64,000 bases of DNA. Source: Flavobacterium undicola (lineage in GTDB: Bacteria; Bacteroidota; Bacteroidia; Flavobacteriales; Flavobacteriaceae). Made by a program: the position numbers and the translations under genes. How positions within the stretch are numbered: the first letter of the stretch is position 1; each line of letters begins with the position of its first letter. Positions 1 through 45,122 of this stretch are shown here, piece by piece. The DNA is taken from the NCBI RefSeq assembly GCF_009909155.2, contig NZ_JAAAPM020000008.1, positions 62,001 to 126,000 of the forward strand. The letters run 5' to 3'. The notes beneath the pieces were generated by a model that ran no database searches, had not been told where the DNA came from, and saw only the letters and a list, made by a program, of their open reading frames with translations.

Positions 1-569
1 TTGGCTTTACTGTCTTTTAATCGGTTTACGGCTGTTGCCAATCCCATCCCAATTCCAGTTCCATCCTGTAAAACGTTATCGTATTTTATGCTTTCGATGG
101 CTTGCTCTACTACCGCTTTATCGCTGGTTACCGGTGTTTTAGTATAGGCTTCAGAAGCATAAACAACCAATCCGATTCTATCATTCGGTCTTTGCTCGAC
201 AAAATCAGCCGCCACTCTTTTCAAAGCTTCCATACGGTTGGGCTTCAAATCTTTGGCAAGCATACTTCCCGAAACGTCCACCGCCATCACAATATCAATC
301 CCTTTAGTCGTTTTAGTTTTATTGCTAATATCAACCGTTCTGGGTCTTGCCATAGCCACAATTAAAGAACTTAGCGCTAGTAATCGAAAGACATTCAAAT
401 AGGGTTTTAATTTTGCCAATAAAGAATTGGACGATTTAAAACCTTTAATCGAACTTACTTTTAAAGTCGCCGATTGCTGGTTTCTCTTTAAAACCAACCA
501 AATAATGGCTAGCGGAATCAAAAGAAACAACCAAAAAAACTCTGGATTTAAAAAAGTTATTTTTGCCAT
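1..569 (-). CDS. batA: BatA, von Willebrand A domain membrane protein (partial)
   Basis: Reading leftward from the ATG at 569 gives 189 codons without a stop, so the 3' end lies outside the window. Two hydrophobic segments (about residues 10-28 and 60-74) are followed by a von Willebrand A domain with the metal-binding motif DVSGS at 98-102. This is the usual start of BatA, an inner-membrane protein of the Bat (Bacteroides aerotolerance) system, thought to display its VWA domain to the periplasm. The start codon shares one base with the stop of the upstream BatD-like gene (TAATG), which points to translational coupling. The MoxR and DUF58 genes upstream in the same direction support the call. 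The exact cellular role of Bat proteins is still unclear. Confidence 0.9.
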   Translation of the reverse strand, partial: MAKITFLNPEFFWLFLLIPLAIIWLVLKRNQQSATLKVSSIKGFKSSNSLLAKLKPYLNVFRLLALSSLIVAMARPRTVDISNKTKTTKGIDIVMAVDVSGSMLAKDLKPNRMEALKRVAADFVEQRPNDRIGLVVYASEAYTKTPVTSDKAVVEQAIESIKYDNVLQDGTGIGMGLATAVNRLKDSKA

Positions 570-2194
570 TATCTACCTTCTTGTTTTAATTCAACTGAGC
601 TTAACACTCGTTCTGAAATTTCATTTGCATACTTATCTCCTTCTTGATGTAGAATTAAAATTTGTTGCAATCCTCCTTCTTGGCTAAACAACAGTACTTC
701 ATAATATATTCTTTCTTTATCATTTGTTGTTGCATTTATTCGTGAAAAAGTACCGTATGCTTTTAATCCTGTAATTCCTTCTTTGGTTTCATAATCTTCT
801 TGTTTCACAATCATATTTTGTGCGCCTTGAGATTCCATTGTTTGCAATGAAACTTCCATCGATTTCTTCAAATCAATTTGAGTTTCCTGCTTGAATTTCA
901 AAGTTGAAACCATCAAATAGAAATTGTCTATCAAACTACCGTAAGCAAAAGATTGCATTTCTTTAACCAATGCCAAACCTTCTTTTGGCAACGATTTTGT
1001 CAAATCAGTACGCTTAAGTACTTTAGGAGTTTCAATTTTTACAGCCGGATTTCCATACTCACTTTTCACCCATTCGCCTTCCAATAATTCCTTTGATGGA
1101 TGCCCGATGATATTGTCTTTTACATAATCAAATCCTTTGGTAACCATCAGGAAAATGGTTGTTGCCATTACTAAAAAAACAACCGTTGCAACCGCAGTAA
1201 TAATGCGTTGCTTTTTTTTCTTCTTTAACTGAATTGCAATTTGTTTTTGTCTTTGCGCTTCATTCAATAAAATATCCTCTTCAACTGGAACTTCAACAGG
1301 AATCGAACTGTCTAAGGTTAAAATCGCTTTTTGGATTTTATTTCTATCCTCAGTTATTTCATATTCCAGCGGTTTTGATTTGGCAAATTTTACTAAATCG
1401 GCTTGTTTTAAAACTCTTTCAAGGTTTCCAATAATTTCCTGAGAAACTGTCATTTTCTTTTTAACCGAAGCCGCTCTTAATCCCTCAATCAACTCCGAAG
1501 TAGTACTTTCCATCGCTGGAATTTCAATTGCTTCTTCGATATAATTTCGAGCAATATCAGTCAATTCACTATAGTATTCTTTTATTTCTCCTTTTTGCCA
1601 AAGCTCTTTCTTTTCTAAGTTATTCAATAAACTTGTAGCTTTTTCTATAGGTGTTTTATAGACTTCTTCTTCTATTTTTTTCTTTTGTCTATTTTTAAGA
1701 AACCAATACACTCCCGTACCAATTCCAAGAATCACAAGCAATCCTAAAAGGTATTTCCACCAATTGCCAATAGTATCATTAGCAGGCTGAATATCCTTAA
1801 TATCATACATTTTTTGTTGTAAAGTATCTACTTTAACATTAGCTACCTCAACAGAAATTGATTCTGTTTGATAGGCCTTGTTATTGATAAGTACCTTGAT
1901 ACTGGGAATTACATAACGTCCCGAATCAAATTGAGTCAAGCCATATCTTTTAATTAACTCATAACGGTCGTTATTTTTAACGGTATCAACAGGATAGGAT
2001 TGAATGACTTCGAGTGCACCGATGTTTTTTAAATTTGGAAAAACAACCTTCGACAAAGTATCTACCGATGTTTTTAAGGTTAATTTAAACTCGGCTCCAA
2101 TTTTATTTTTTGTAGTATCGATACTTGTTTCTACTCTTTTTTGTTGCGCAAAAATGGCTGTAGAAAGTAGCAGTAATAATATTATTTTTTTCAT
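569..2194 (-). CDS. BatD-like membrane protein of the Bat operon
   Basis: The 541-residue product has a signal peptide (residues 1-17), a beta-rich N-terminal part (about 20-120) resembling the BatD oxygen-tolerance domain, a membrane segment at about 145-167, a charged helical cytoplasmic stretch, a second membrane segment at about 331-352 after a lysine-rich run, and a C-terminal globular domain (about 370-541) that I cannot assign with confidence; it recalls PsbP/DUF1795-like folds. A protein of this type (BatD-like or DUF4381-like) usually sits between the DUF58 and BatA genes of flavobacteria. It overlaps batA by one base. The first half is a firm Bat-family resemblance; the function of the second half is unknown. 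Confidence 0.75.
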   Translation of the reverse strand: MKKIILLLLLSTAIFAQQKRVETSIDTTKNKIGAEFKLTLKTSVDTLSKVVFPNLKNIGALEVIQSYPVDTVKNNDRYELIKRYGLTQFDSGRYVIPSIKVLINNKAYQTESISVEVANVKVDTLQQKMYDIKDIQPANDTIGNWWKYLLGLLVILGIGTGVYWFLKNRQKKKIEEEVYKTPIEKATSLLNNLEKKELWQKGEIKEYYSELTDIARNYIEEAIEIPAMESTTSELIEGLRAASVKKKMTVSQEIIGNLERVLKQADLVKFAKSKPLEYEITEDRNKIQKAILTLDSSIPVEVPVEEDILLNEAQRQKQIAIQLKKKKKQRIITAVATVVFLVMATTIFLMVTKGFDYVKDNIIGHPSKELLEGEWVKSEYGNPAVKIETPKVLKRTDLTKSLPKEGLALVKEMQSFAYGSLIDNFYLMVSTLKFKQETQIDLKKSMEVSLQTMESQGAQNMIVKQEDYETKEGITGLKAYGTFSRINATTNDKERIYYEVLLFSQEGGLQQILILHQEGDKYANEISERVLSSVELKQEGR

Positions 2195-2221
2195 CCTTTA
2201 ATTGGGAACTTTTGATTTCAG

Positions 2222-2251
2222 ATTGAAGATTAACGATTCTTGATTTCAGAT
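2222..2251. repeat. Left arm of perfect 30-bp inverted repeat around the four-helix-bundle gene
   Basis: This 30-base segment is the exact reverse complement of 2703-2732. The match breaks at the next base on both sides. Together the arms enclose 451 bases containing one small gene. The 12-mer TTGATTTCAGAT ends this arm and also occurs just outside it at 2212-2223, so the arm is itself built of repeated words. Confidence 0.9.
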
Positions 2252-2287
2252 ATCTCACGAAACTGTTGAATCATTTTTATTTCAAAA

Positions 2288-2647
2288 TCATTTCATATTT
2301 GATTTAGCAGTCTTAATACTTGACACGAAAATAGAAATTAACTCATTGGCTTCTATTTTTGCAATCGATAAATTCTTCAAATCTGTTGTTAAATTCGCTT
2401 TTTCAATAATTTTTAAACAAACAAAACTTTCTCTTAATTCTTTTAAACAAATCCCCATTTTATGAACGAAATCTTTACTGCTTTCGGCACTTTGGGCTTC
2501 TCCATAATTTAAAGCTGGAGATGTTCCTGAACGAATAATTTGACCTGCTAAATGATTTCCTGCATAATTTTTTTCAAAATTACCTGCAACAATTATTATA
2601 GTTGCTGCAAAATCTATCAATCTATTCTCCAGTTCTTCTTTATTCAT
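2288..2647 (-). CDS. Four-helix-bundle protein (23S rRNA intervening-sequence / S23 family)
   Basis: The product is about 119 residues, all predicted helix. It matches the four-helix-bundle family first known from open reading frames inside 23S rRNA intervening sequences and related to the Avd accessory protein of diversity-generating retroelements. Family features visible are the early helix ending near FAATIIIVAGNF, the GQIIRSGTSPALNYGEAQ turn and the KELRES segment. I choose the ATG at 2647; a TTG nine bases upstream is less likely. The gene interrupts the Bat operon between DUF58 and the BatD-like gene, in the same direction, and is bracketed by perfect 30-bp inverted repeats. No reverse transcriptase or rRNA is nearby. 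Its molecular function is unknown. Confidence 0.85.
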   Translation of the reverse strand: MNKEELENRLIDFAATIIIVAGNFEKNYAGNHLAGQIIRSGTSPALNYGEAQSAESSKDFVHKMGICLKELRESFVCLKIIEKANLTTDLKNLSIAKIEANELISIFVSSIKTAKSNMK

Positions 2648-2702
2648 TTCTAACAATATTTTAGTTCAAAAAATCTAAATTCTAATTCTCTATTCCAACT
2701 AA

Positions 2703-2732
2703 ATCTGAAATCAAGAATCGTTAATCTTCAAT
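2703..2732. repeat. Right arm of perfect 30-bp inverted repeat
   Basis: Exact reverse complement of 2222-2251. It lies between the end of the DUF58 gene (2742) and the start of the four-helix-bundle gene (2647). In a Bat operon transcript the two arms would pair into a 30-bp stem with the small gene in the loop. Confidence 0.9.
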
Positions 2733-2741
2733 TTTAAATCT

Positions 2742-3605
2742 TTATCTCGATTTAAAATAGCCCAATAATTTAGTTACATAACTTTCGTCAACTCTGGTAT
2801 TTACTACACCAGAACCTGATTTACTAAAGGTTTCTTTGAAATAATTCAGTTGTTCATGATAGTATTTCTCATAATTCATTCGAACTGCTTTTGAACCTGT
2901 ATCTACTAATTGCGTCTCTCCTGTTTCGGCATCCAACATAGGAACCATTCCTAGATTTGGCATTTTCTCTTCACGAATATCATACACACGAATTCCAGTT
3001 ACATCGTGTTTTTTAGCGGCAATTTTCAAAGTTTGCTCGTAATCATCCGACATAAAATCAGAAATCATAAAAACAATGGCTTTCTTTTTTTGAGTACTCG
3101 ACAAAAATTTCAATGCCTGAGCAATATCCGTCTTATGACTTTGTGGTTCAAATTCGATCAATTCCCGAATGATACGCAAAACGTGAGACCTTCCTTTCTT
3201 AGGTGGAATATACAATTCGATTTGGTCCGAAAATAAAATCAATCCAATCTTATCATTGTTTTGTGTAGCCGAAAAAGCCATCGTTGCAGCAATTTCTGTT
3301 ACGATGTCTTTTTTAAATTGATTCTTAGAACCAAAACTCTCCGAACCTGAAATATCAACCATTAACATCATGGTTAACTCCCGTTCTTCTTCAAAAACTT
3401 TTACGTGGGCTTCATTATAACGAGCAGTAACGTTCCAATCAATATTTCGAATATCGTCTCCATATTGGTATTGACGTACCTCACTAAAAGTCATTCCACG
3501 CCCTTTGAAAGAAGTATGATATTCCCCTGAAAAGATGTGATCACTCAATCTTCGGGTTTTGATTTCTATTTTTCGTACTTTTTTTAAAAGCTCTTTTGTA
3601 TCCAT
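2742..3605 (-). CDS. DUF58 domain-containing protein of the Bat operon
   Basis: This 287-residue cytoplasmic protein carries the DUF58 signature (GRGMTFSEVRQY, then GDDIRNIDWNVTAR at about 49-62) followed by a VWA-like fold with a MIDAS-type DISGS at 84-88. It has no signal peptide or membrane segment. DUF58 proteins are nearly always encoded next to MoxR ATPases, and the pair is thought to act as a chaperone or metal-insertion module for the VWA partners BatA and BatB. It lies 79 bases downstream of moxR in the same direction. The spacer between them holds a repeat-word palindrome. The family call is firm; the biochemical role is inferred. Confidence 0.92.
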   Translation of the reverse strand: MDTKELLKKVRKIEIKTRRLSDHIFSGEYHTSFKGRGMTFSEVRQYQYGDDIRNIDWNVTARYNEAHVKVFEEERELTMMLMVDISGSESFGSKNQFKKDIVTEIAATMAFSATQNNDKIGLILFSDQIELYIPPKKGRSHVLRIIRELIEFEPQSHKTDIAQALKFLSSTQKKKAIVFMISDFMSDDYEQTLKIAAKKHDVTGIRVYDIREEKMPNLGMVPMLDAETGETQLVDTGSKAVRMNYEKYYHEQLNYFKETFSKSGSGVVNTRVDESYVTKLLGYFKSR

Positions 3606-3612
3606 TTGATTG

Positions 3613-3684
3613 TTGATTGTTGATTAACGATTGCTGATTTCAGATCTAAAATCTAAAATCAGTAATCTAAAATCTAAAATCTTT
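3613..3684. repeat. Imperfect palindromic repeat, related to the 30-bp arms
   Basis: The spacer between the moxR and DUF58 genes is made of repeated words (GATTGTTGATT, then CTAAAATCTAAAATC twice). Bases 3622-3645 match 2228-2251 of the cassette arm at 22 of 24 positions. The right half is a degenerate inverted partner. It looks like an empty, gene-less relative of the flanked four-helix-bundle cassette. Confidence 0.75.
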
Positions 3685-4689
3685 TTAAGGTACCTCTACT
3701 TCGTTTATAATTTTATTGATGATGTCAACCGAAGTGATATTTTCAGCTTCTGCCTCATAAGTAACACCAATTCTATGACGCAATACATCATGAACAACAG
3801 CGCGTACATCCTCAGGAATTACATAACCACGACGTTTGATAAACGCATAACATTTAGCCGCATTAGCTAAATTGATACTTCCACGTGGCGAAGAACCAAA
3901 ACTGATTAATGGTTTCAAATCAGCTAATTTGTATTTTTCTGGGTAACGAGTAGCAAAAATAATATCCAAGATGTATTTCTCGATTTTTTCGTCCATGTAC
4001 ACTTCACGAACCGCTTCTTGTGCACGTAAAATTTGCTCAACAGAAACTACTTGATTTACCTTGCTGTAACTTCCGCTTAGGTTTTGACGAATTACCAATC
4101 GCTCTTCATCCATTTTTGGATAATCGATTACCGTTTTCAACATAAAACGATCGACTTGCGCTTCTGGCAATTGATATGTTCCTTCTTGCTCGATTGGGTT
4201 TTGCGTAGCTAAAACCAAGAATGGTTTTTCTAATTTAAAAGTAGTATCACCAATAGTAACTTGCTTTTCCTGCATGGCCTCTAACAATGCCGATTGCACC
4301 TTAGCTGGCGCACGGTTAATCTCATCGGCAAGAACGAAATTAGCAAAAATAGGTCCTTTTTTAATCGAGAATTCATTTTGCTTGATGTTGTAAATCATTG
4401 TTCCTACAACATCAGCAGGTAATAAATCGGGTGTAAACTGGATTCTACTAAAAGATCCGTGAACTGCTTGCGAAAGTGTATTGATAGCTAATGTTTTTGC
4501 TAATCCTGGAACTCCCTCCAGCAAAATGTGTCCTTGTCCTAGTAATCCAATCAATAATCGTTCAATCATGTGCTTTTGACCCACAATCACCTTGTTCATT
4601 TCCATAGTAAGAAGGTCTATAAAAGCACTCTCTCTTTCTATCTTTTCATTGATTGCTCTAATGTCTAAAGTCGCTGTATTCTCTTCCAT
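3685..4689 (-). CDS. moxR: MoxR family AAA+ ATPase
   Basis: The 334-residue product is a standard-length MoxR ATPase. Walker A reads GVPGLAKT at 59-66, Walker B reads FVLADE at 118-123 followed by INRAP, and the sensor region ATQNPIEQEGTYQLPEAQ and a C-terminal lid domain follow. MoxR ATPases work as chaperone-like activators of VWA proteins, here presumably the BatA/BatB products encoded downstream. It is the first gene of the minus-strand run moxR, DUF58, four-helix bundle, BatD-like, batA. The start is the ATG at 4689; the upstream spacer is shared with the divergent SDR gene. Confidence 0.95.
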   Translation of the reverse strand: MEENTATLDIRAINEKIERESAFIDLLTMEMNKVIVGQKHMIERLLIGLLGQGHILLEGVPGLAKTLAINTLSQAVHGSFSRIQFTPDLLPADVVGTMIYNIKQNEFSIKKGPIFANFVLADEINRAPAKVQSALLEAMQEKQVTIGDTTFKLEKPFLVLATQNPIEQEGTYQLPEAQVDRFMLKTVIDYPKMDEERLVIRQNLSGSYSKVNQVVSVEQILRAQEAVREVYMDEKIEKYILDIIFATRYPEKYKLADLKPLISFGSSPRGSINLANAAKCYAFIKRRGYVIPEDVRAVVHDVLRHRIGVTYEAEAENITSVDIINKIINEVEVP

Positions 4690-11506: not shown

Positions 11507-11530
11507 GATAATTAGTGCGTTTGTGTTTTA

Positions 11531-11606
11531 ACCCCGGTAGGAGCGGCATCCTTTATGTCCTTTCTTTAAGGACATAAAGATATAGCGGAAAACGGGAATG
11601 GCTCCT
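11531..11606. repeat. REP-like hairpin element, copy 1
   Basis: An inner perfect 12-bp stem (11551-11562 with 11568-11579) is enclosed by AGGAGC (11539-11544) and GCTCCT (11601-11606). The core words AGCGGCATCCTT and AAAGATATAGCG recur in the element at 45022-45122. It fills the spacer between the haaO and aldehyde dehydrogenase genes. Confidence 0.75.
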
Positions 11607-12154: not shown

Positions 12155-12218
12155 TTTGAGTTGTTTTAAAGAAAAGCTAAGGTACGAAAAAAAAGAATTT
12201 TAGTTTCAATTTTGGTTT

Positions 12219-12313
12219 CACGAAGATTCGCAAAGAAAACCGCAAAGACACACAAAGAAAAATCCTTTCAAAAATTTTAGCGGAACTTTGCGTTTTCTTT
12301 GCGAATCTTTGTG
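12219..12313. repeat. Inverted repeat of AAAG-rich words upstream of haaO
   Basis: Bases 12219-12247 and 12286-12313 are inverted copies about 28 bp long with one mismatch and one single-base gap, separated by 38 bases. The arms are made of TTCGCAAAGAAAA-like words. The element lies between the EEP gene stop (12341) and the haaO start (12154) and could act as a transcript-end hairpin for the minus strand. Confidence 0.75.
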
Positions 12314-12340
12314 TAACAAGCTAAAAAACAAACAAAAAAA

Positions 12341-44223: not shown

Positions 44224-44931
44224 TCAAATTACATTCTTTTTCTGTCCAAATACAAAACGAATACCAAAACCAACATTCAACGGATAAGTCCTTGCATTGG
44301 AATAAGGCGAAAGCGGATTATCCGTAAAATGAATAGGAAATCCTAGAAGAAAATCAAAACGAAAAGCCCTAGAACCTAAGCCCAACAGAAATCCAGGTTC
44401 TACTACAAAATATTCGGAATGAATACGATCTTTAGTTGTGTTTAAATGGTTTCCCTCATAAAACAAATAACTGTTTTTTAAGCAAAATATAGCATCTCCC
44501 TTGATTCCTCCAATAATTTCACCTCCACTGATACCTGCATTGAGCTGTACAAAAGGGCGGCGAAAGTTTCCTTCATATCGCTTAGCTACATGTGTAGTAT
44601 CTGTATAAGCAAAGTTAGAGCCAAAGCCAATTCCTCCTGATACATATACGTTTTTTGCAAAATATCCTGCGGCAACTTCCCCTTCATGAGAACGATAATT
44701 ATTCATCCCTCCAGCATTATACATTCCCATAACACCAAAATGTTCTGTAAGAGACACAGCCCCTTTGGAAGTGAAACCCGAAGAACTTACTTCAGCTGAC
44801 ACATGCACTTCACCTTTATTATTGAACAATACAGGATTCACTGTGGGTGCAAAATACTTATAATTAGACGATTTACAAGATGATAAAACAATAAGACTAA
44901 AAAGCAAAATAGATTGGGACAATTTTCTCAT
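44224..44931 (-). CDS. Lipoprotein with beta-barrel-like pattern, function unknown
   Basis: The 235-residue product has a lipobox cysteine C19 (LSSC) and a mature part rich in glycine and aromatic residues in an alternating pattern (VSGGIGFGSNFAY, FVQLNAGISGGE), ending in GFGIRFVFG. This looks like an outer-membrane beta-barrel with a lipid-anchored N-terminus, a type common in Bacteroidota. No family could be recalled with certainty. The gene stands alone, downstream of the hflX region on the same strand but separated by a repeat element. Confidence 0.65.
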   Translation of the reverse strand: MRKLSQSILLFSLIVLSSCKSSNYKYFAPTVNPVLFNNKGEVHVSAEVSSSGFTSKGAVSLTEHFGVMGMYNAGGMNNYRSHEGEVAAGYFAKNVYVSGGIGFGSNFAYTDTTHVAKRYEGNFRRPFVQLNAGISGGEIIGGIKGDAIFCLKNSYLFYEGNHLNTTKDRIHSEYFVVEPGFLLGLGSRAFRFDFLLGFPIHFTDNPLSPYSNARTYPLNVGFGIRFVFGQKKNVI

Positions 44932-45021
44932 AGTAGGTTTTTGAGTACGCCAAATATACGGCTGTTAATTAAATTTCAATAGCAATACTCAAGAAATCAA
45001 TTGCAACATTAAAACGACTGC

Positions 45022-45122
45022 ATGAGGGATGGTAGCGGTATCCTTTTGTGGAGTGCTAACGAAACAAAAGATAAAGCGAACAGCCCGACCCAGCTGGAAC
45101 GCAGTGGAAGCTGGGGCATGCC
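45022..45122. repeat. REP-like hairpin element, copy 2
   Basis: Two hairpins are visible: 45043-45049 with 45064-45070, and CCCAGCT at 45089-45095 with AGCTGGG at 45109-45115. The first hairpin is flanked by AGCGGTATCCTT and AAAGATAAAGCG, the same core words as in the element at 11531-11606. GC content is well above the surroundings. Confidence 0.75.

Follow-up and report, generated by a model that had tools for sequence, protein, structure and literature searches.

An IVP/S23 four-helix-bundle gene between inverted word arrays in an operon spacer of Flavobacterium undicola

Introduction

Several rRNA intervening sequences (IVSs) carry an open reading frame (ORF) of the S23/IVP family, as PMC4990558 reports for Coxiella and, from the work cited there, for Leptospira and others. 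The Coxiella IVS has a 28-bp stem which, according to the same source, is cut by RNase III in vitro (PMC4990558). A different kind of pairing between a gene and its flanks is seen in the REPIN/RAYT systems, which PMC6006769 presents as a gene flanked by inverted repeats that recur as short inward hairpins, with the repeat type going with the gene lineage. A third relevant system is the diversity-generating retroelement protein Avd, whose structures 4dwl and 8ub8 come after those of S23 proteins in a fold comparison and which, to judge from the titles of these entries, acts in an RNA-protein complex.

The locus analyzed here, located in a 64,000-nt stretch of Flavobacterium undicola DNA (the window), shares features with all of these systems. 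Like the rRNA IVSs, it has a gene of the same protein family, an ORF bounded by terminal inverted repeats (of 28 bp in Coxiella according to PMC4990558, and of 38 nt here) and a sporadic presence, while it is unlike them in that the cassette lies between protein genes, its arms are arrays of a 7-8-nt word shared with gene-less hairpins, and its stem is a predicted one. Like the REPIN/RAYT pair as described in PMC6006769, it is a gene flanked by inverted repeats that recur as short inward hairpins, with repeat type following gene lineage here in some comparisons and not in others, while it is unlike that pair in that the window protein is a four-helix bundle rather than an HUH/Y1 transposase, the repeats are degenerate word arrays, and there are several gene copies per genome (eight here), each with its own word. 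The cassette thus works like both a REPIN/RAYT pair and an rRNA IVS but lacks a defining feature of each, namely the HUH transposase and the rRNA site. The window protein and Avd are about 11% identical, and no reverse transcriptase was seen among the four operon proteins that were scanned. Cassettes of a second family, GxxExxY, share the architecture, in that a small co-directional gene also lies between inverted word arrays, with a period that is mostly 9.

None of the titles and passages covered by a search of open-licence PubMed Central papers describes an IVP or GxxExxY gene enclosed by word arrays. Among the phage elements of two strains of F. columnare, PMC5524665 lists a four helix bundle gene whose neighbours encode guanylate kinase and a nicotinate-mononucleotide adenylyltransferase.

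Results

The cassette and its operon

Positions 2222-2251 and 2703-2732 of the window are perfect reverse complements over 30 bp, and the inverted repeat in full comprises 2214-2251 and 2703-2740, which are 38 nt long and 95% complementary with 451 nt between them. The arms enclose a single minus-strand ORF (2288-2647; 119 aa from ATG, 122 aa from TTG), and its product exceeds the cut-offs of both PF05635, 23S_rRNA_IVP (42.3 bits, cut-off 33.8), which is its sole Pfam match, and TIGR02436, four helix bundle protein (74.5 bits, cut-off 24). The original prediction, made from the DNA letters and a list of ORFs, of an exact 30-bp inverted repeat around one small S23-family gene was therefore confirmed. 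The features of the locus are as follows.

569..2194, minus strand: gene for a 541-aa protein, an ORF without Pfam match, directly downstream of the cassette
2214..2251, plus strand: left arm, a GATTNNN word array read inward, lying 3' of the gene on its coding strand, with a perfect match at 2222-2251
2288..2647, minus strand: IVP/S23 four-helix-bundle gene, 119 aa (PF05635, TIGR02436, AlphaFold model)
2703..2740, minus strand: right arm, a GATTNNN array on the other strand, inward, lying 5' of the gene on its coding strand, with a perfect match at 2703-2732
2742..3605, minus strand: DUF58 gene (PF01882, 285.8 bits), directly upstream of the cassette
3608..3681, no strand assigned: gene-less inward GATTNNN hairpin in the MoxR-DUF58 spacer, arms of 31-40 nt that are 75-77% complementary
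3685..4689, minus strand: MoxR-type AAA ATPase gene (PF07726, 219.5 bits)

All four genes are on one strand and the order in transcription is the MoxR-type ATPase, DUF58, the IVP gene and the 541-aa protein. A Pfam search of the last of these (569-2194) gave zero matches at E of 0.001 or below, and "BatD-like" is the label that it was given in the original prediction. An Rfam search of the window found no rRNA, so the cassette is not inside a 16S or 23S rRNA gene, and its flanks are protein-coding. The proposal that the architecture of an rRNA IVS occurs here in an mRNA spacer was borne out, with gene and arms both lying within the MoxR-DUF58 operon. The inverted repeat is not a product of chance, since 12 inverted repeats scoring at least 18 occur in 320 kb of this genome, compared to none in a shuffled copy of that stretch, and the repeat in the window itself scores 33.

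Inverted arms are linked to the IVP family

The window's genome contains eight PF05635 genes by profile search and inverted arms are present at all eight (scores 13.5 to 33), each of them passing the 95% level of a swapped-flank null (score 12.0), with words that differ among the eight loci. The cassette is therefore not a one-off. From the genus, 118 IVP loci were fetched, three of which were dropped due to short flanks, and 91 of the 115 usable loci are above the swapped-flank 95% level and 37 above the 99% level, with a median arm score of 16 vs 9 in the null, although these are high-scoring family members that are not independent, 400 locus pairs sharing a homologous flank gene. By comparison, the 95% level is passed by five of 45 genes in the window, which include the IVP gene itself and DUF58, a gene that sits between two GATT-word repeats, leaving three of 43 others, and a score above 12 is reached by only one of 27 GNAT control loci (30 fetched, three dropped).

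A phylum-wide search provided 29 new IVP loci, of which 16 pass their own null, including 13 of the 25 from outside the window's family. In the named set, which is the best 80 of at least 586 relatives less seven with short flanks, and which includes some Flavobacterium, 43 of 73 loci pass (22 above the 99% level), among them one from a Gastranaerophilales MAG. The swapped-flank inverted-repeat test is failed by 24 of the 115 genus IVP loci and by 30 of the 73 named loci, and in 22 of those 24 failing genus loci there is still a periodic array on a flank. An array of 7-8 nt is found on at least one side in 104 of 115 IVP loci vs seven of 27 GNAT loci, and on both sides in 69 IVP loci vs one GNAT locus. 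The IVP family is truly linked to inverted word-array arms. As to the possibility, raised at the outset, that the arms are ordinary repeats with no tie to this family, they are indeed dispersed repeats, but the absence of a family link is contradicted by 8/8 resident and 91/115 genus loci.

Two loci deserve separate mention. Inverted arms (CTTAGCGAACTTTGCGG) also surround an unrelated ORF whose product resembles a 2Fe-2S ferredoxin (L174, 4182-4623; G000:C1:44182-44623), and the upstream flank of the IVP gene in L145 is a very long tandem array (AGTGATAAGTAATT plus AGTGATT units) that is an expanded arm.

The arms are word arrays that recur as gene-less hairpins

Each arm is a repetition of the 7-nt word GATTNNN, in the order GATTTCA, GATTGAA, GATTAAC, GATTCTT, GATTTCA and a final GAT. 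The search of the 4.27-Mb genome for arms with and without the gene, as had been suggested, located arm-like sequence at 14 further places (40 of 159 candidates scored), gene-less hairpins included, and a re-search showed that at seven of these 14 a plus copy is followed by a minus copy and the interval lacks an IVP gene. One of the recurrences is in the operon of the cassette itself, in the adjacent spacer (3608-3681). When loops of 15-45 nt are allowed, the inward GATT pattern has 145 matches in 34 of 101 genus genomes and the outward pattern has none, where 145 is the sum of forward matches of one pattern whose registers overlap. When the controls were read backward, inward TTAG words gave 24 matches and outward TTAG words gave none, which indicates a second word with the same polarity. 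The arms are thus not unique to the cassette and are dispersed word arrays that also occur as gene-less hairpins.

Of 184 inverted repeats in a 784-kb sample of the genome of the window, 36 are periodic. Six of the periodic repeats score at least 16 against IVP arms when the cassette is left out, and all six match one of the eight resident arms (L015 three times, L016 twice and L011 once), the places of the three L015 matches having been known before the contigs were chosen and those of the other three not. The same six had no match among 81 arms of other genomes. One of these own-word repeats has a 554-nt loop.

On a broader scale, 40 genomes with an unbroken IVP of at least 70% identity have a median of 11.5 GATT arrays per Mb and none is array-free, compared to 2.5 per Mb and 21% array-free in 326 genomes without an IVP of at least 50% identity (p 5e-11, uncorrected, with genome groups typed by hand). 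After correction for phylogeny, the association between GATT-array number and a cognate IVP was not significant (eight independent pairs: 3.1 same, 1.0 opposite, 3.9 equal), and many genomes that lack the cognate IVP are rich in GATT arrays, an example being G056 with 318.

Word length follows the enclosed family

In 89 genus loci scoring at least 13, letters repeat at a distance of 7 in 54% of arm positions, vs 31% in shuffled arms. A best period of 7 is seen in 53 of these loci and one of 8 in another 29 (7 or 8 in 82 of 89), and in the named IVP loci it is 7 in 34 and 8 in eight of 47. The arms have a median length of 30 nt (quartiles 25-37) and are strand-biased, the 5' arm having more G than C in 72 genus loci and less in 10 (40 vs 4 in the named loci), and AG occurring 321 times in the genus arms vs 104 for CT.

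The GxxExxY family (TIGR04256, PF13366), whose protein belongs to the PD-(D/E)XK superfamily, was encountered as a small gene inside an inverted repeat of a sampled contig. After four of 30 fetched loci had been dropped, 22 of the remaining 26 scored above 12 and 16 of 26 exceeded their own swapped null. Among 21 of these loci, 13 have a best period of 9 and two have one of 10 (9 or 10 in 15 of 21), and from the IVP period of 7-8 vs a GxxExxY period of mostly 9 it follows that word length depends on the enclosed family. A defence-system library gave no match for two IVPs and a weak Cas4-like match for one GxxExxY protein, and a passage of PMC8934634 considered for a published link of GxxExxY to reverse transcriptases proved to have no bearing on one. 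In the sampled contig the gene of L181 (18582-19077; G000:C1:198582-199077) lies within inverted arms (ACCATTAAGAAATTAAG), and a gene-less copy of the word from these arms is at C1:287738-287794.

Words are conserved better than pairing

In RNA of the minus strand, a terminal stem of about 33 bp is predicted to form around the gene, with a minimum free energy (MFE) of −123.1 kcal/mol and a z score of −4.1. In ten orthologous cassettes, the GATT columns and one AAC show little or no variation in either arm, and the majority of the other letters, those separating the words, mismatch in up to five of the ten and without compensation. Among 31 stem pairs 15 never vary and two change on both sides, a number that 186 of 500 shuffles reach, and so covariation lends the stem no support and was rejected as evidence for it. 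Pairing over the 31 positions is complete only in L084, with 30 in the window's own copy. Because the words are nearly invariant and the letters between them are uncompensated, word recognition explains the arms better than does stem pairing, and the better retention of words argues against a stem that is kept only as a substrate for RNase III.

A matched order of units between the two arms was found by unit permutation in 29 of 71 genus, 18 of 34 named and 7 of 7 GxxExxY loci, in a test that is biased toward matching as the arms had been picked by their match (the named set in this and the flank-array tests numbers 75 and includes two misplaced loci, L360 and L373). Pairing may therefore still matter, given the matched order in 29 of 71 loci. 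Our reading of these comparisons is that each pair of arms originates by inverted copying and diverges afterwards, with recognition probably holding the words.

One operon spacer in 30 species

The spacer that separates DUF58 from the gene for the 541-aa protein was classified by eye in the window's genome and in the 29 best matches from 398 genus genomes, 391 of which had a match. A full cassette is present in ten of the 30 (L082, L084, L087, L092, L093, L094, L098, L103, L105, L110), gene-less arm remnants on both sides in three (L091, L099, L101), a single arm in four (L083, L085, L086, L089), an empty spacer of about 32-34 nt with nothing else in four (L096, L100, L102, L111), and other repeats or an unrelated spacer in nine. 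Empty sites with clean junctions, which had been proposed as a check, were therefore found in close relatives at this very spacer. For example, in the empty L102, which belongs to the L094 group, the DUF58 stop codon is joined directly to GGGTTCAATAATAAAAG, and the right arm is followed by GAGGTTCAATAATAAAAG in L094 and by GGGTTCAATAATAAAAC in L103. Comparison of the site junctions by eye gave no clear target-site duplication, and the enclosed gene matches no transposase family.

On a tree of 29 of the species (L089 was omitted as its match was cut), presence of the cassette changes at least ten times. Sister species differ in state, L092 having the full cassette and L091 both arms without the gene, and L087 having the full cassette and L088 another hairpin. 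Divergence at fourfold sites is about the same for the IVP gene as for its flanks in most pairs, which makes loss look commoner than gain. The same measure led to horizontal transfer being rejected as the rule, with the exception of L094-L105, where the IVP genes differ at one of 37 fourfold sites and the flanking genes at 26 of 98 and 70 of 179. The history of the cassette at the DUF58 site, as read from these sequences, appears to be one of mostly vertical inheritance with frequent loss and rare movement.

In L088, L090, L097, L104, L107 and L109, the same spacer is filled by other families of palindromic repeats (for example CTCCCTCTCCTTTGGAGAGGG and ACCCTGACAGGGTT), as if it were a hot spot.

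Words and IVP lineages

Most closely related IVPs share one site in many species, and relocation is therefore rare. In three cases the word was kept after relocation, namely in L068 at a nuo site vs L063, L076 and L165 at a suf site, in L145 vs a nadD site, and at an enoyl-CoA-hydratase site (L257, L261, L265, L266), where IVPs that are 51-58% identical to the one in the window have arms that are GATTAAC arrays, these site names being readings of the flanking proteins. Against this, at a dut/nucleotidyltransferase site IVPs of 55-60% identity to the one in the window have another word (15 loci, by eye). All seven IVP pairs of at least 80% identity at sites scored as non-orthologous share their arms, but one of the seven, L081-L126, is actually a single site and the remainder rest on the two relocations of L068 and L145. 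At 40-50% identity, about 1% of the pairs at non-orthologous sites share arms. The original interpretation was supported in part, and movement is rare, with mostly vertical inheritance and frequent loss of the cassette at the DUF58 site.

Operon position and fold of the IVP protein

Both neighbours are co-directional with the IVP gene in 107 of 112 resolved loci (six unresolved), and with the GxxExxY gene in 21 of 25. In a sampled genome this is so for 350 of 605 genes and for 76 of 136 small genes, and the value for random insertion and orientation is 0.37. A median of 66.5 nt separates the stop codon of the upstream gene from the start of the IVP gene, and the ATG that follows the IVP stop codon lies at a median of 49 nt. 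This operon position fits a gene that would depend on the mRNA of its host. A search for an rRNA context at nine related loci, six of them picked as non-Bacteroidota, found no rRNA and one tRNA.

The AlphaFold model of the window IVP has four helices (pLDDT 96.3). The nearest solved folds are 2rld (Z 17.4, 111 residues, rmsd 2.0) and 2gsc (Z 16.8, 113 residues, rmsd 2.1), each of which has chains A to E, and the 2gsc protein, Xcc0516, is described in PMC4990558 as a toroid of five. Next by fold is Avd, alone (4dwl) and in an RNA-protein complex (8ub8), with Z of 13.7-13.8. Unrelated helical bundles such as TARP gamma-2 also reach about 13.7, and the match to Avd is weak on its own. The net charge of the IVPs is about +1, which provides no argument for binding of nucleic acid.

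Discussion

These results suggest, with a probability that we put at about one half, that the cassette in the window represents a REPIN/RAYT-like class found across the Bacteroidota sample in which the four-helix protein recognizes its own word. The cassette is a full-length member, in which an IVP/S23 gene lies between two inward arrays of a degenerate 7-8-nt word and is placed co-directionally in an operon spacer. A gene situated there, between a stop and a start codon, would be translated from the host mRNA and do little harm. The protein is envisaged as a ring that binds about four to five word copies per arm in RNA or single-stranded DNA. Such binding would on rare occasions promote copying, and would help to maintain the protein's own arms as well as, in trans, the gene-less hairpins, so that the IVP would be to its word arrays what the RAYT transposase is to REPINs, by means of a different protein. 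The two nearest solved structures are deposited with five chains each, and the arms, with a median of 30 nt, hold about four to five words, which would suit a ring of five. Its TRAP-like character is conjecture, prompted by related folds and the length of the arms. TRAP, which binds triplets, one per subunit, is the model for it. Against a role of the IVP in driving copying is the lack of any catalytic domain seen in the protein, which is not known to have one.

A wider and more tentative version, which we regard as possible though doubtful, is that IVP/S23 and GxxExxY cassettes are both word elements, each protein reading a private word and spreading its arrays as gene-less hairpins, that the IVP reader is a ring of five subunits with one mostly AG-containing word for each, and that the rRNA IVSs, known for decades, would be the special case in which such an element landed in rRNA.

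Several other explanations must be considered. The cassette might be an mRNA intervening sequence, the arms of which pair in the operon mRNA and are cut by RNase III with release of the IVP-coding piece. The predicted terminal stem around the gene, the presence of the same gene family and a terminal stem in the Coxiella IVS, the co-direction of the IVP genes with both neighbours and, in spite of the bias in that test, the matched unit order would all be explained, but only two of 31 stem pairs show two-sided change and GATT is retained while the letters between mismatch without compensation. In addition, an RNase III stem has no need for words whose length varies with the family enclosed, and cleavage would presumably break up an operon mRNA in a way that it does not break up rRNA, which together make this reading unlikely. 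Somewhat less probable still is that the IVP is an RNA-binding regulator of the host, with the arms serving autoregulation and the gene-less hairpins constituting its regulon, after the models of TRAP and of autoregulating ribosomal proteins. This would accommodate the mostly vertical inheritance, the resident words elsewhere in the genome, the suitability of repeated words for a ring protein, the operon position and the resemblance of the fold to Avd. It is difficult to reconcile with a presence that changes at least ten times among 29 species at a single site, with clean losses between near relatives and with the use of other words at other sites.

The least probable of the explanations weighed here is that slippage and template switching in AT-rich spacers generate the arrays and that IVP genes merely tolerate them. 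Such a by-product would be expected to turn up in gene-less form and next to some unrelated genes, as the arrays do, and to include a long tandem such as that in L145; template switching would also yield the matched unit order of some loci, and the corrected word-gene test was not significant. Yet the arrays are absent from GNAT genes and from most genes of the window, their period depends on the family enclosed, they have an inward polarity, and the words of the hairpins are predicted by those of the resident IVPs, all of which weaken this explanation.

Cassettes of this kind probably represent small elements, either selfish or regulatory, of a class that has received little attention. The IVP family thereby gains a consistent context, consisting of an operon cassette, inward word arrays and cognate hairpins, that makes its function directly testable, and GxxExxY is joined to the same architecture as a second small family. 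Some of the short repeats scattered through these genomes are accounted for in this way, and an origin for the rRNA IVSs is suggested.

The window contains some further repeats and RNA elements. A gene-less inverted repeat at 12215-12317 (26 nt, 92%) has words that resemble the GxxExxY arms (TTCGCAAAG), and the flanks of a 235-aa minus-strand ORF at 44224-44931 share an inverted repeat with a score of 21. Two matches to Flavo-1 RNA (RF01705), at 11526-11603 and 45018-45094, are above the gathering score.
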